Positions 1 to 7,281 of a stretch of DNA of 64,000 nt are shown one piece after another. The notes under the pieces are model-generated. The model saw only the letters and a list, made by a program, of their open reading frames with translations. It searched no databases and was not told the origin of the DNA. Numbering within the stretch: the stretch's first letter is position 1; each line of letters starts with the position of its first letter. The position numbers and the translations under genes are program-made. The DNA is from Thiotrichaceae bacterium (GTDB lineage: Bacteria; Pseudomonadota; Gammaproteobacteria; Thiotrichales; Thiotrichaceae), in the NCBI GenBank assembly GCA_026991755.1, contig JALXAX010000074.1, positions 1 to 64,000 on the forward strand, in the 5' to 3' direction.

Positions 1-900
1 GAATATAAAGAGTGCATCTCCATCTGCATCACTGTCATTGTTTAATACATCAATGCTAACAGGGGTACCATTTGAGGTCGCATTATCATCTTGTGCAATC
101 GGTGCTACATTTCCTGGTGTAACAATCACTGAAACTGTCGCCGTTACTACATGACCATGTTTATCAGAAAGGTTATAAGTAAACGTATCCGTGCCTGCAA
201 AACCTTGATCGGGTGTATAAACAACCTGACCATTTTGAACGCTCGCATTACCATTACTAGGTTGAGTAGCCAAGTAAATAAAGAGCGTATCCCCATCTGC
301 ATCGCTATCATTGTTTAATACATCGATGGTAACGGGTGTACCATTTGAAGTCGCATTATCATCTTGTGCAATCGGTGCTACATTTCCTGGTGTAACAATC
401 ACTGAAACTGTCGCCGTTACTACATGACCATGCTTATCAGAAAGGTTATAAGTAAACGTATCCGTACCTGCAAAACCTTGATCGGGTGTATACACAATCT
501 GACCATTTTGAACACTTGCTCTACCGTTACTAGGTTGACTCGCTACGAATATAAAGAGCGCATCTCCATCTGCATCACTGTCATTGTTTAATACATCAAT
601 GCTAACAGGCGTACCATTTGAGGTCGCATTATCATCTTGAGCAATCGGTGCTACATTTCCCGGTGTAACAATCACTGAAACTGTCGCCGTTACTACATGG
701 CCGTGTTTATCAGAAAGGTTATAAGTAAACGTATCCGTGCCTGCAAAACCTTGATCGGGTGTATAAACAACCTGACCATTTTGAACGCTCGCATTACCAT
801 TACTAGGTTGAGTAGCCAAGTAAATAAAGAGCGTATCTCCATCTGCATCACTGTCATTATTTAATACATCAATCGTAACAGGTGTACCATCAGAGGTCGC
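1..900. repeat. Tandem 273-bp coding repeats
   Basis: The phrase aaagagYgYatc recurs at 7, 280, 553 and 826, exactly 273 bp (91 codons) apart. Units alternate in type. Units starting near 1 and 547 share gaatataaagag, and units near 274 and 820 share aagtaaataaagag. The higher-order unit is therefore 546 bp, which points to recent duplication of a two-domain block. The array continues past the left edge. Confidence 0.95.
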
Positions 901-2754
901 CATATCGTCCCCTGCTACAGGGGGAACATTTACAGATGAAGCCGCAATAACTCTTATTGTGACGTTGGCTTGAGATTGAGCACCATTACTATCTGTAACG
1001 GTGTATGTGAAAGTATCTGTGCCTGTAAAGTTCTGATTAGGTGTATAAACCACTTCGCCATTAACAACTGTTGCCGTCCCATTAGCTGGCTGAGTCACGC
1101 TGGTCAATGTTAATCCATTACCTAAGTCATTATTAAGCACATCAACTGTAACAGGTGTGTTCTCTATCGTTGTCTCAGTGTCATCGGTAAGATTTGTCAC
1201 TGTAGTAGGGCTAATATTATTGCCCGCTGTTGTTTGATAGGTACTGATATGTCTATTATGTCGAATAGCATTATGCAGCCCCCGCTTTACCCACGAAGGT
1301 TCTGCCTGAACAACTTCAGTTTTCCAAGTGACACTAGGCTTGCTAATACCTGCTTGTTGCACAACCACATTCTTATATTCTGTTTTATAAGCTGTCTTGT
1401 ATGCTGTTTTATAAACGGTCTTAAAGCCTTCTTTACAACTTGCATCCTGTGTAATGTATTCAATATCTACACGACGGTTCTTATGACGATTGCCCTTTAC
1501 ATTGGCATACTTTGGTTGAGTTTCACCTAAGCCTCTAGCAACTAGTTCTGAACGATTAAATCCGTGATTAACGAAATAACGTTTAACAGCACTGGCACGA
1601 CGTTCTGAAAGTACCTGGTTATGCTGCAAGCTTCCGATATCACAAGTATTACCCGTGATTCTAATATTACCTTTGTAGCCTGTGCGCCGAACCTGCGCCA
1701 ACACTTGGTTTAAGCGTTTCTTAGCGGAAGGTAATAAGCGTGAGCTGTTAGCCTTAAAGAAAGTATCACTACCCAGTTCTACGGTTGATTTAACTAGCTT
1801 ACATCCACGAACTTTAACTGCTTTCTTATACGCTTGCTTGTAAGGAATTTTAACTGCTTTTCTTACTGTTTTCCCTGCATGTGCATGACCTGGCATCTCA
1901 ACACGGACACGTCTTGTTTCTTTATCGCTTTGATAAATATCTGCACCACCAAAGTCATATCGATAGCTCATATTCGCACGTGTATCTGTACTGTTTTTCC
2001 CAAAGCCACCTTCTTTTCTACTGGCAGCCACATCTAAAGAAACACTATGTGGTGTTCCCTGGAAAAACTTTTCTACACCAGCTGATACTGTTAATTGTTC
2101 AGGTCTGCTTTCTCCAACACCACGCTCATTATCCCAGGCATAGTCAAGACCACCACGAATACGAATATTAGAGTCAGGTAAGAAAGTACCTACTTGACCA
2201 CCTACATTATATTCATAACCTTTTTCAAAGAGAGTTTGACCCTTATTAGTTCTACCAATATTACGCTTGCCTGATAGACCTTTACCGACATAGCCTTCCC
2301 AGAATCCCTTATCAATCTCCTGTCCGTAACCCACTGTTGCTCGGTCATCATCGTTTGCATTACGATCATAGGCACCAAATATCTTATTAACCCTCAGAGG
2401 TCTTCCTTGTTCATCACGACTTACCCAATGGTGATTTAAGCGTACTCCACCGGCATTAATACCTTTATCTTTACCACCAAAGTCAAAGCCTACCCAAGCA
2501 TCACCTGAGGTTGCGGTATCATTACTTTCTGAGAATATGTGGCTGATATCAGCCGTACCATCAAATTCGGTATCTACACCAACACCAATGCGTGTTTGAC
2601 CACCTACGTAATCAAAATTTGCATTATTGACTTCACGGAATTCATCTTTAAATTGTGGTGCATTAGCCGATTGTCCAGCAGCCAACGCAGCAGTAGAACA
2701 GAACAACAAAGGAAGATAAATCCAGCTTGGTGCTTTAGAATTATTAGAAGTCAT
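1..2754 (-). CDS. Large surface protein, N-terminal part: probable beta-barrel, OmpA domain, Ig-like (tandem-95) repeats
   Basis: Partial: the frame is open from ATG 2754 to the window edge, giving 918 residues without a stop. Residues 1-27 form a Sec signal peptide (hydrophobic core, then ALAAGQSANA). Residues about 30-270 are rich in alternating aromatic/Gly/Asp strands such as WVGFDFGG and MSYRYDFGG, which suggests an outer-membrane barrel, possibly of the inverse-autotransporter type. An OmpA C-terminal-like peptidoglycan-binding domain spans about 310-432 (ITGNTCDIG, LSERRASAVKRYF, NRRVDIEY). A Tyr/Lys linker (KTAYKTAYKTEYK) follows. From about residue 515 there are Ig-like/cadherin-like repeats (VDVLNNDSDADGD, YTPDQGFAGTDTFTY), one divergent and then near-identical 91-residue copies. 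The role is probably adhesion or envelope anchoring. The OmpA domain being internal rather than C-terminal is odd. The C-terminus and any secretion signal lie outside the window. Confidence 0.85.
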   Translation of the reverse strand, partial: MTSNNSKAPSWIYLPLLFCSTAALAAGQSANAPQFKDEFREVNNANFDYVGGQTRIGVGVDTEFDGTADISHIFSESNDTATSGDAWVGFDFGGKDKGINAGGVRLNHHWVSRDEQGRPLRVNKIFGAYDRNANDDDRATVGYGQEIDKGFWEGYVGKGLSGKRNIGRTNKGQTLFEKGYEYNVGGQVGTFLPDSNIRIRGGLDYAWDNERGVGESRPEQLTVSAGVEKFFQGTPHSVSLDVAASRKEGGFGKNSTDTRANMSYRYDFGGADIYQSDKETRRVRVEMPGHAHAGKTVRKAVKIPYKQAYKKAVKVRGCKLVKSTVELGSDTFFKANSSRLLPSAKKRLNQVLAQVRRTGYKGNIRITGNTCDIGSLQHNQVLSERRASAVKRYFVNHGFNRSELVARGLGETQPKYANVKGNRHKNRRVDIEYITQDASCKEGFKTVYKTAYKTAYKTEYKNVVVQQAGISKPSVTWKTEVVQAEPSWVKRGLHNAIRHNRHISTYQTTAGNNISPTTVTNLTDDTETTIENTPVTVDVLNNDLGNGLTLTSVTQPANGTATVVNGEVVYTPNQNFTGTDTFTYTVTDSNGAQSQANVTIRVIAASSVNVPPVAGDDMATSDGTPVTIDVLNNDSDADGDTLFIYLATQPSNGNASVQNGQVVYTPDQGFAGTDTFTYNLSDKHGHVVTATVSVIVTPGNVAPIAQDDNATSNGTPVSIDVLNNDSDADGDALFIFVASQPSNGRASVQNGQIVYTPDQGFAGTDTFTYNLSDKHGHVVTATVSVIVTPGNVAPIAQDDNATSNGTPVTIDVLNNDSDADGDTLFIYLATQPSNGNASVQNGQVVYTPDQGFAGTDTFTYNLSDKHGHVVTATVSVIVTPGNVAPIAQDDNATSNGTPVSIDVLNNDSDADGDALFIF

Positions 2755-3253: not shown

Positions 3254-3655
3254 ATGAAGTTTCTCAATTATTTCCCCTTGTTTGCCTTTATGCTAGCTGC
3301 ATACTGGGGATTACACGTTATTAATTTTTTCCCCGAAAGAATTAATGAGATTCTATTTAATCTACGTCTTCCTTCTGGCTCTGTCTGGAAACCTACCTTT
3401 GGCGACTTATTCGTTATGCTAGGTATTCTTGTATTGTTTGTTGAGCTTTTTAAGTCCACCCGAACAAATACCACATCTATCGTTGATCACATTTTATCTA
3501 CCTTTGTATTGGTTGCCTTTCTTGTGGTTTGGTTGATCTACCCTTGGGCGGGCAATTCATACTTTATGATTATTTCTATGATGACATTCTTAGATGTTAT
3601 TGCAGGCTTCACCATTACCATTTCTGCAGCTAAAAGAGATATCGGTATCGGTTAG
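3254..3655 (+). CDS. Small four-helix membrane protein, unknown function
   Basis: 133 residues with about four predicted membrane segments (roughly 5-24, 50-67, 78-100 and 104-124), short loops, and a basic C-terminal tail (AAKRDIG). AAGGATG lies about 11 nt before the ATG and may serve as ribosome-binding site. I recognise no family. It stands alone between two OmpA-domain proteins, read in the same direction as the downstream TSP3/OmpA gene but separated from it by about 390 bp that contain an inverted-repeat element, so co-transcription is doubtful. It is probably an inner-membrane protein. Confidence 0.7.
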   Translation: MKFLNYFPLFAFMLAAYWGLHVINFFPERINEILFNLRLPSGSVWKPTFGDLFVMLGILVLFVELFKSTRTNTTSIVDHILSTFVLVAFLVVWLIYPWAGNSYFMIISMMTFLDVIAGFTITISAAKRDIGIG

Positions 3656-4047: not shown

Positions 4048-7000
4048 ATGAAAAAAACCGTTCAATTCTTATTTATTAGTAGCTTATCTATTTCCTTAGT
4101 AGCTTTAGCACAACAAGCAACAGCTGGTGACTGCCAACCTGATTTTAGACTAGCAAATAATCAAGAAAAGGGAGCCTCTTTTCCAGCTACCCCCAATTTC
4201 CCTGCCTTCCCTACCCCCCCATCATTTGAGATGCCGCTAGGATCTAGCCATCAAGGCTTTATGCCGATGCCAATCCCCATGCAACCTATGCCTTTCTTAC
4301 AAGCGCCTGAAGGACAATTTTCAGAATCTGTTTTCCCTGCTCCACAAATACCAGATAGCCCAACTAAGCCAACCTTTGCTCTTATGCAAATGTCAGAAAC
4401 CGAAGGAATGAATCCTCCTTCTTTTCCCTCTCCGGAAAGCATGGCGCCACCCATATTTATGCAGCCTGTTCCCCCAATGGAAGCAGGCTTCATACCACCA
4501 CCTCCTATGTTAGTAGGTCCAAATACGGGGTCTGCACCTATACCGATGGGGCCAATTGGATCCGTGGGGTCAGGTTTAATGCCATTTCCTCCTATGATGA
4601 TAGAGCCAGGCCACCCAATGCCACCAGGCATGCTACCGCCTCTACCCATGCCAATGAATCAAGGGATGGCCTTCCCTCCTATGCCCATCATGAATCCCAA
4701 TATGGGCATGATGCCACCACCTCCTATGCCAATGGGAATGCCTATGGGAATGGGAGTGCCCATGGGGCCAATAGGACCGATGCCTCCCATAAATGCAGGC
4801 ATGCCGATGACCTCAATATTGCTAATGCCGCCACCTCCTGCGCCTATGCAAGCTATGCCACAAACCATGCCGGCACCTTCACAACCACCTCAGGAATTTA
4901 AGGCTCCTGTTATTGAAGTTGCTCCACTCCCTGTTCCTCTTGTAGGCACTGCCAAAGAGGCTGCGGAAACCGCTGAAAAGGAAAAAGCGGCTCAAGAACT
5001 GGCTGCATTAAAAGAACAACAAGCTAAACTAGTAGCTGAAATGAAAGCAGCTACCGCTGACCAAGATAATGATGGCGTAGTCAACATGTCCGATCAATGT
5101 GCTAATACCCCAGAAGGTACTTTTGTTGATATTCGTGGATGTAAGGCTGATAAAGACAAAGATGGCATCGCTGATAACATAGATCAATGTGGGGGCTCAC
5201 CACAAGGTAGCCCAGTCAATGAGCAAGGATGTCCTATTGATTCTGATCACGATGGCATCGCTGACATTCAAGATAAGTGTCTAGATACAAAAGCGAATTC
5301 TCGCGTTGATGCTACGGGTTGTTCACTAGATTCTGATAATGATGGGGTTACTGACCAGCTTGATAAATGCCCTGCATCATCACCTGGTATTCCCGTTGAC
5401 GCTACCGGTTGTAGTGCTGATTCCGATAGAGACGGCGTAGTTGATATTAAGGACCAATGCCTCGAAACACCTGCGGGAGCAGATGTTGATCTTGGAGGAT
5501 GTCAGAAAAAGCCTGATACCTCATCTCTGGATAAGTTAAAAGCCGATCACCTTCAATTACTTAGTAATTTCCAATCAGCTACATCTGATACTGATAAAGA
5601 TGGGGTTGTTAATATTTCAGACCAATGCCCTCAAACTCCAGAAGGTAGCAAAGTTGATTTCAAAGGATGTCAGCTTGATAGCGATCAAGATGGCGTTGTA
5701 GACGGACAAGATCAATGCCCTGAGTCCGCAATAGGGACTGCTGTTAATGAGCTGGGCTGTGCTATCGACACAGATAAAGATGGGGTAGCAGATGCTGCGG
5801 ATAAGTGCCCTACTTCACCAGAAGGCTCTGCCGTGAATGCTGAAGGTTGCCCTGCTGATTCTGATAAAGATGGCGTAGCTGATGCGGATGATAAGTGTCC
5901 TACTTCACCCGAAGGCTCTGCAGTGAACGCTGAGGGTTGTCCCGCTGATACTGATAAAGATGGTGTAGTTGATGCAGATGATAAGTGTCCTACTTCGCCC
6001 GAAGGGTCTGCCGTAAATGCCGAGGGTTGCCCTGCTGATTCTGATAAAGATGGCGTAGCTGATGCGGATGATAAGTGTCCTACTTCGCCCGAAGGGTCTG
6101 CCGTCAATGCCGAAGGTTGCCCTGCTGATACCGATAAAGACGGGGTAGCTGACACTGACGATAAATGTCCAACCTCACCCGAAGGATCAATGGTCAATGC
6201 AGAAGGTTGCCCTATAGACAGCGATAAAGACGGTATTGTTGATACTGATGACAAGTGTCCATCATCTCCTGCTGGTGCTCCAGTAGATAATACGGGTTGT
6301 CCTGTAGACTCTGACAAGGACGGCGTAACAGACCTTGAAGACCAATGTTTAACAACAGCAGAAGGCGTCAAAGTAGATGCTAAAGGTTGTGCTCTGGATG
6401 CTGATAAAGATGGCGTAATGGATAATATTGACAAGTGTTTAACCTCACCTAGCGGCTCACCTGTTGATGCTACGGGTTGCCCTGTAGATTCTGACAAAGA
6501 TGGTGTAACTGACCTTGAAGACCAATGCTTAACAACAGCGGAAGGCGTTAAAGTAGATGCTAAAGGTTGTGCTCTGGATGCTGATAAAGATGGCGTAACC
6601 GATGACGTAGACAAGTGTTTGACCTCACCTAGCGGCTCACCTGTTGATGCTACGGGTTGCCCTGTAGACTCAGACAAGGACGGAGTGACTGACCTTGAAG
6701 ACCAATGTTTAACAACTCCAGCAGGAGCTAAAGTTGACAACAAGGGGTGTGAACTAGATTCAGATAACGATGGTGTAGTTGACTCAACCGATAAATGCCC
6801 TGATACGAAAGCAGGAGAGAAAATTGATACCGCAACAGGTTGTGCTCCAGATGCTGATGCCGACGGTGTATCTGACCTGAAAGACTTATGCCCTGGCACA
6901 GAGTCTGGCAAGGATGTGAATGAAGTAGGCTGTGCTAGTGATGAAAACATCAGCTTAAAAGGCGTTAACTTCAAAACTGCATCCGCTGAACTAACAGCAA

Positions 7001-7281
7001 CTTCTCTACCTATTTTAGATGAAGCTATTGAAAGTCTAAAACGCCACCCCGGTATTAAACTACGCGTAGCAGGTCATACCGATAGCTCGGGTGATGATGC
7101 TCTCAATATGAGCCTATCTAGTAAACGTGCAGTAACGGTTATGAAGTACCTCATCAGCAAAGGGATTGCTTCAGATACTTTAACCGCTAGTGGTTTTGGT
7201 GAAACCAAGCCTATCGCTGATAATGCTACCGCTGAAGGTCGTGCGACCAATCGTCGAGTTGAATTAGAGATACGCAAGTAA
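4048..7281 (+). CDS. OmpA-domain envelope protein with Met/Pro-rich region and about 20 TSP3 calcium repeats
   Basis: 1077 residues. The Sec signal peptide is at about 1-27 (ALAQQATAG). Residues about 45-285 are a low-complexity Pro/Met/Gly stretch, with about 39 Met in roughly 220 residues by my count. Residues 300-335 are Ala/Glu/Lys-rich and likely helical or coiled. From 338 to 964 run about 20 thrombospondin type-3-like repeats of 30 residues (DSDKDGVADADDKCP pattern), each with a DxDxDG calcium loop and two Cys; a 25-residue spacer separates the first five from the rest. The C-terminal OmpA/MotB-type peptidoglycan-binding domain is at about 965-1077 (VAGHTDSSGDD, NRRVELEIRK). Start supported by AAGGA 7 nt before ATG. 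The likely role is a calcium-rigidified link between the outer surface or periplasm and peptidoglycan. The Met-rich part is unusual for this family. Confidence 0.9.
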   Translation: MKKTVQFLFISSLSISLVALAQQATAGDCQPDFRLANNQEKGASFPATPNFPAFPTPPSFEMPLGSSHQGFMPMPIPMQPMPFLQAPEGQFSESVFPAPQIPDSPTKPTFALMQMSETEGMNPPSFPSPESMAPPIFMQPVPPMEAGFIPPPPMLVGPNTGSAPIPMGPIGSVGSGLMPFPPMMIEPGHPMPPGMLPPLPMPMNQGMAFPPMPIMNPNMGMMPPPPMPMGMPMGMGVPMGPIGPMPPINAGMPMTSILLMPPPPAPMQAMPQTMPAPSQPPQEFKAPVIEVAPLPVPLVGTAKEAAETAEKEKAAQELAALKEQQAKLVAEMKAATADQDNDGVVNMSDQCANTPEGTFVDIRGCKADKDKDGIADNIDQCGGSPQGSPVNEQGCPIDSDHDGIADIQDKCLDTKANSRVDATGCSLDSDNDGVTDQLDKCPASSPGIPVDATGCSADSDRDGVVDIKDQCLETPAGADVDLGGCQKKPDTSSLDKLKADHLQLLSNFQSATSDTDKDGVVNISDQCPQTPEGSKVDFKGCQLDSDQDGVVDGQDQCPESAIGTAVNELGCAIDTDKDGVADAADKCPTSPEGSAVNAEGCPADSDKDGVADADDKCPTSPEGSAVNAEGCPADTDKDGVVDADDKCPTSPEGSAVNAEGCPADSDKDGVADADDKCPTSPEGSAVNAEGCPADTDKDGVADTDDKCPTSPEGSMVNAEGCPIDSDKDGIVDTDDKCPSSPAGAPVDNTGCPVDSDKDGVTDLEDQCLTTAEGVKVDAKGCALDADKDGVMDNIDKCLTSPSGSPVDATGCPVDSDKDGVTDLEDQCLTTAEGVKVDAKGCALDADKDGVTDDVDKCLTSPSGSPVDATGCPVDSDKDGVTDLEDQCLTTPAGAKVDNKGCELDSDNDGVVDSTDKCPDTKAGEKIDTATGCAPDADADGVSDLKDLCPGTESGKDVNEVGCASDENISLKGVNFKTASAELTATSLPILDEAIESLKRHPGIKLRVAGHTDSSGDDALNMSLSSKRAVTVMKYLISKGIASDTLTASGFGETKPIADNATAEGRATNRRVELEIRK
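5059..6939 (+). repeat. Tandem 90-bp coding repeats (TSP3 modules)
   Basis: The DNA behind the TSP3 modules repeats every 90 bp, most alike between about 5764 and 6210 (gataaagatggcgtagctga, ccgaaggctctgccgtgaat). A 180-bp pattern is seen at 6300-6720, where modules of the DLEDQC and DKCLTSP types alternate. The array should be prone to length change by slippage or recombination. A long open frame on the opposite strand of this array is only a by-product of the repeat. Confidence 0.95.

Follow-up and report, generated by a model that had tools for sequence, protein, structure and literature searches.

How a protein that carries an OmpA-type domain directly behind an outer-membrane barrel could bring the Ig-like repeats that follow to the cell surface is the question raised by the first gene of the window, i.e., the whole stretch of 64,000 nucleotides of Thiotrichaceae DNA analysed here. 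If the chain leaves the barrel on the periplasmic side and the OmpA domain binds peptidoglycan, the repeats would begin in the periplasm, a problem of topology which the first-pass annotation rightly raised and for which it demanded either a different topology or a separate secretion route. The gene is a single minus-strand open reading frame of 918 aa (window:1-2754), open past the left edge, with the layout signal peptide, 12-strand barrel, OmpA domain, Tyr/Lys linker and Ig repeats (Table 1). We consider it likely that it encodes a self-exporting adhesin resembling the inverse autotransporters, with the OmpA domain on an out-and-back arm and an Ig stalk displayed through the barrel.

Layout of the gene and occurrence of the architecture

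The left edge of the window is base 1 of contig C74, and the reading frame is cut there. Its continuation, already of interest to the first-pass annotation, very probably lies on contig C192, because the last 99 nt of the window are found exactly near the end of C192 and are followed there by additional Big_9 repeats and a stop codon after ...TVFLQTDFLSGNGNSHAAN, behind which lies a thioredoxin-like gene similar to that found 3' of the adhesin gene in relatives. A contig break is expected at such a site, where nearly identical repeats defeat assembly.

Within the window, Pfam searches gave a match of the OmpA domain to PF00691 (E 5e-17) and five Big_9/cadherin-like stretches behind it, the first beginning near residue 518; the barrel region is covered by none of the curated families. 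Apart from the Tyr/Lys linker at about residues 441-463, a second, similar Tyr/Lys stretch, which is absent from the first-pass annotation, precedes the OmpA domain (about residues 300-315).

Table 1. Features of the adhesin gene and its conserved neighbours (positions in the window; residues of the 918-aa reading frame).
Feature	Position	Strand	Basis or remark
Signal peptide, residues 1-25	2680..2754	(-)	By eye; hydrophobic WIYLPLLFCSTAALA core; homologues with similar cores
12-stranded outer-membrane barrel, residues 54-268	1951..2595	(-)	AlphaFold2 (AF2) and Foldseek
Outgoing spacer, residues 287-321, with Y/K stretch	1792..1896	(-)	Long strand in model
OmpA domain and flanks, residues 322-433 (PF00691 at 332-427)	1456..1791	(-)	Pfam, fold
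Cys371 at presumed diaminopimelate-binding Asp position	1642..1644	(-)	Alignment, 65/65 Cys
Returning spacer, residues 434-476, Y/K ribbon	1327..1455	(-)	Model; length matching
Conserved linker W477-T508	1231..1326	(-)	Helix SWVKRGLH, extended stretch, strand with invariant Tyr506
Big_9/cadherin-like repeats, proposed surface passenger, running off contig	1..1203	(-)	Pfam
133-aa membrane protein, divergent, conserved neighbour	3254..3655	(+)	
TSP3-repeat protein with C-terminal OmpA domain, conserved neighbour	4048..7281	(+)	Pfam

For the homologue set, 76 loci were retrieved from named genomes; three at the bottom of this list (L112-L114) are unrelated OmpA proteins and were not counted as members. 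Members come from Thiothrix, Leucothrix, Cocleimonas, Thiolinea, Thiofilum and Thiotrichaceae MAGs, and further from nine Burkholderiales/Betaproteobacteria/Proteobacteria MAGs, which we take from their isolate names to be of termite-gut origin and whose proteins (583-868 aa) mostly have one Ig repeat. The order read by the first-pass annotation was found in all 65 aligned sequences, and so was its departure from the usual C-terminal position of OmpA, as linker and repeats come after the domain throughout. In a genome search, the barrel gene turned up in 58 of the 63 genomes searched from the family of the window, the Thiotrichaceae type, and in 16 of 79 genomes of a second gammaproteobacterial family, and was almost absent elsewhere in a 399-genome sample of the phylum. 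Since the order is common to all aligned sequences and 58 of 63 family genomes carry the barrel gene, it is not a product of chance. In the open-access papers that could be searched, we came upon no account of an OmpA domain placed between barrel and linker, and upon nothing specific on Thiothrix adhesins or holdfasts.

At most of the Thiotrichaceae loci examined, the adhesin gene is divergent from two neighbours, one coding for a membrane protein of about 136 aa and the other for a larger secreted protein, and the locus is often near rsmA and hemW. The larger protein of the window, divergent from the adhesin gene as well, has 1077 aa with about 19 thrombospondin-3 repeats. A gene for a membrane-anchored thioredoxin-like protein often lies 3' of the adhesin gene (L176:1158-1682, L040, L051, L066, L073). 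Second adhesin copies of Cocleimonas and Leucothrix adjoin, as judged by eye, LolC/LolD-like genes (L063, L068) or a MurJ-like gene (L089, L095).

Barrel fold and probable kinship with inverse autotransporters

The probable barrel of the first-pass annotation was borne out by structure prediction: an AF2 model of residues 26-612, computed with the 65 aligned sequences, has a 12-strand barrel with pLDDT mostly above 90, followed by an OmpA fold flanked by two long strands and then by a helix (487-494) that leads via a short strand (505-508) to an Ig fold (multidomain pTM 0.56). Modelled alone, the barrel reached a mean pLDDT of 89 and a pTM of 0.83. Its longest loop lies between strands 7 and 8, and its last strand, SYRYDF, is predicted to end on the periplasmic side; with 12 strands, both barrel ends would therefore be periplasmic if the N-terminus is.

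In a Foldseek search of the PDB with the barrel alone, intimin/invasin beta-domains took ranks 1-3 (E 2.0e-9, 4.8e-9 and 5.7e-9), and the next barrel, OmpG (E 6.9e-6), followed three orders of magnitude behind. With TM scores of 0.57-0.60 and an rmsd of about 5 A, the folds are similar, not identical; the larger AF2 model returned the same intimin/invasin matches. The barrel thus looks like that of an inverse autotransporter (type Ve) in its predicted fold.

On the sequence level, no PF11924 match was obtained for the window protein or for 28 aligned sequences (E up to 1), for the forms lacking OmpA (E up to 10) or in the source genome. In hhalign comparisons with diverged and canonical inverse autotransporters, the barrel alone scored no better than shuffles, while barrel plus linker of the broad family gave a collinear alignment with a marginal score of 25.6, where the null averaged 17.8 and 1 shuffle in 60 scored as high. 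A first impression of sequence motifs shared with YeeJ was dropped, as hhalign gave no significant barrel match. Kinship with the inverse autotransporters consequently rests on fold and layout, since the hhalign scores were not significant or marginal. On these two grounds, the window protein would belong with them, and it is not filed as a member of PF11924 because the sequence test for this family failed.

The layout holds several points in common with intimin, invasin and YeeJ, namely an N-terminal 12-strand barrel, a helix and linker after the last strand, a conserved Tyr strand at the linker end and a C-terminal Ig-like passenger (PMC13078405, PMC6714894). In intimin, an alpha-helical turn acts as the plug at the periplasmic barrel end, the linker crosses the lumen and the exit strand, which has a conserved Tyr, pairs with extracellular loops (PMC13078405). 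YeeJ and intimin moreover bind peptidoglycan via an N-terminal LysM domain in front of the barrel (PMC5595812). Unlike these PF11924 proteins, the window protein has no N-terminal LysM, and most members of its family have an OmpA domain on two spacers between barrel and linker.

Matched spacers and relatives without the OmpA domain

The two spacers were measured between invariant residues in the 65 sequences, where the one before the OmpA domain varies from 17 to 69 aa and the one after it from 25 to 77 aa, and their lengths correlate closely (Pearson 0.987, Spearman 0.993). When independent contrasts were taken on a tree from which the spacers had been left out, r was 0.973 and the slope 1.01; among the 38 contrasts with any change, both spacers changed the same way in 30 and in opposite ways in 5, and one side alone changed in 3. 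Contrasts of the two spacers against barrel length were, for comparison, -0.14 and -0.13. Composition is matched as well, some clades having Tyr/Lys ribbons both before and after the OmpA domain, others Pro/Ala/Gly-rich segments in both places. Such matching is expected if both legs span the distance from the barrel mouth to the OmpA domain, and it is not expected if the chain just runs on from OmpA into the periplasm. Because the flanking spacers match in length, the OmpA domain would be suspended in the periplasm by an arm that runs out and back. Cysteine pairing between the spacers lends weak support, since both Cys are present together in just 4 of 65 sequences, all of the window's clade, and two others have the second Cys alone.

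The linker behind the returning spacer is of fixed length: exactly 28 residues separate W477 and Y506 in all 65 sequences, and a helix and about 10 extended residues precede the strand with the invariant Tyr506.

Natural relatives bear on the same point. A paralogue of 452 aa in the same genome (L177:2709-4067) joins its last barrel strand directly to the linker (RYEFNKKKSALSLYSVDHPNAWVKRALYNPIKHSRY) and has one Ig repeat, without the OmpA domain and without either spacer. In the second family, four loci (L191, L193-L195) likewise join the barrel directly to the linker without OmpA, and the genomes of L193-L195 also carry an OmpA-containing copy. The domain order of all these forms, barrel, linker and Ig, is that of intimin, and they show, from their sequences, the OmpA domain and both spacers to be an optional unit at one position, the predicted periplasmic mouth of the barrel. 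They sit at two separate places in the barrel tree; the form in the source genome is nested in the window's clade, which suggests that the module was lost in that lineage. As a natural deletion of the OmpA module, this paralogue is useful for experiments, and forms with and without OmpA in one genome offer a ready-made test of wall anchoring in autotransport.

If the chain stays periplasmic after strand 12, the literal reading of barrel, OmpA domain and repeats would be an ordinary OmpA-type barrel anchor whose Ig repeats remain in the periplasm, e.g., as an intermembrane spacer or scaffold. We regard this as improbable, as the barrel fold is nearest to intimin and invasin, the matched spacers and the conserved linker of fixed length would have no obvious reason, and the OmpA-less relatives have the order of inverse autotransporters. 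The passengers, moreover, vary from a single repeat in a protein of 583 aa up to proteins of 1753 aa. Comparison with OmpA/OprF-type proteins (PF00691) extends to a barrel followed by a periplasmic OmpA domain of the same fold, whereas the window protein has a 12-strand barrel of another type, Cys in place of Asp and a chain that runs on into Ig repeats behind an OmpA domain that is not C-terminal.

Proposed wall anchoring, export and course of the chain

Membership of the domain in the OmpA family is indicated by profile match and fold alike. Cys371 stands at the position which we take to be that of the diaminopimelate-binding Asp, D271 in A. baumannii OmpA. This position is Cys in all 65 sequences, while the partner Arg386 is kept in all of them; among the OmpA-containing proteins of the second family, most retain GHTD or GHAD, and Cys is found in L190 and L192. 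The invariant change from Asp to Cys questions ordinary peptidoglycan binding, and that the window protein binds the wall, perhaps in a different manner, is likely but not assured.

The same substitution could be read as a sign that OmpA domain and repeats are both borne on the surface, the OmpA fold being reused outside with loss of peptidoglycan binding. This is very unlikely in our view, given that Arg386 is invariant, that homologues of the second family mostly keep GHTD and that equal spacers fit a domain hung from the barrel, not one within a linear stalk. With the OmpA domain placed in the periplasm, its role could instead be likened to that of the N-terminal LysM of intimin and YeeJ, i.e., an optional module for wall anchoring, placed at a point at which the chain would already be periplasmic. 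A further parallel is TpgA (NCBIfam NF047726), in which an OmpA-type domain is likewise tied to an autotransporter adhesin and whose profile weakly matches the OmpA domain of the window protein; TpgA, however, is a separate protein and the partner of a trimeric autotransporter adhesin, whereas the domain here is inside the adhesin chain itself.

Large repeat adhesins of other families are exported by such routes as type I, II or IX secretion. By this precedent, a separate system could also export the repeats here, with the barrel serving only as an anchor, and the first-pass annotation held a separate route to be one of the two ways out. Complete homologues (583 to 1753 aa), however, end directly after an Ig repeat, and Pfam searches found no C-terminal sorting domain and no other C-terminal domain in the part on C192, while an N-terminal barrel with a linker fits self-export. 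Of the explanations considered, we rate this one as the most remote. That a separate route must act found no support, and a passing remark of the same annotation, that the linker might cross back, is favoured by the intimin/invasin-type fold, the length-matched spacers and the OmpA-less relatives that join barrel and linker.

For the self-exporting adhesin, we propose the following course. The N-terminal barrel would lie in the outer membrane with both ends predicted to be periplasmic. After strand 12, the chain would run down the outgoing spacer to the OmpA domain near the peptidoglycan, and the returning spacer of matched length would lead it back up to the barrel mouth, as length matching and the OmpA-less relatives suggest. 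The linker of fixed length would then provide plug helix and exit strand through the lumen, and the Ig-repeat stalk would stand outside with the C-terminus at its tip, both by the precedent of intimin. This route from barrel to OmpA domain, back, through the lumen and into the Ig stalk is proposed because helix, extended residues and Tyr strand follow each other as in intimin, and a separate secretion route would not be needed.

An additional idea, which we offer tentatively and consider rather doubtful, is that the two-stranded arm, its legs held at equal length in the course of evolution, measures the distance from outer membrane to wall and links attachment to the wall with the plugging of the pore, in what would be a new way of wiring a type Ve adhesin to the wall, while the invariant Cys makes the grip unlike that of classical OmpA and possibly redox-dependent, with the thioredoxin-like gene as partner. 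The thioredoxin-like protein could, in this context, act on the invariant Cys.

The intimin-type reading would resolve an apparently impossible topology. Length matching of the spacers makes a strong structural prediction that is easy to test, and it points to a possible ruler of the periplasm. Moreover, the inverse-autotransporter design would, by our analysis, reach far past the sequences that Pfam recognises and into nearly all sequenced members of the family, to which filamentous sulfur bacteria such as Thiothrix and Leucothrix belong.
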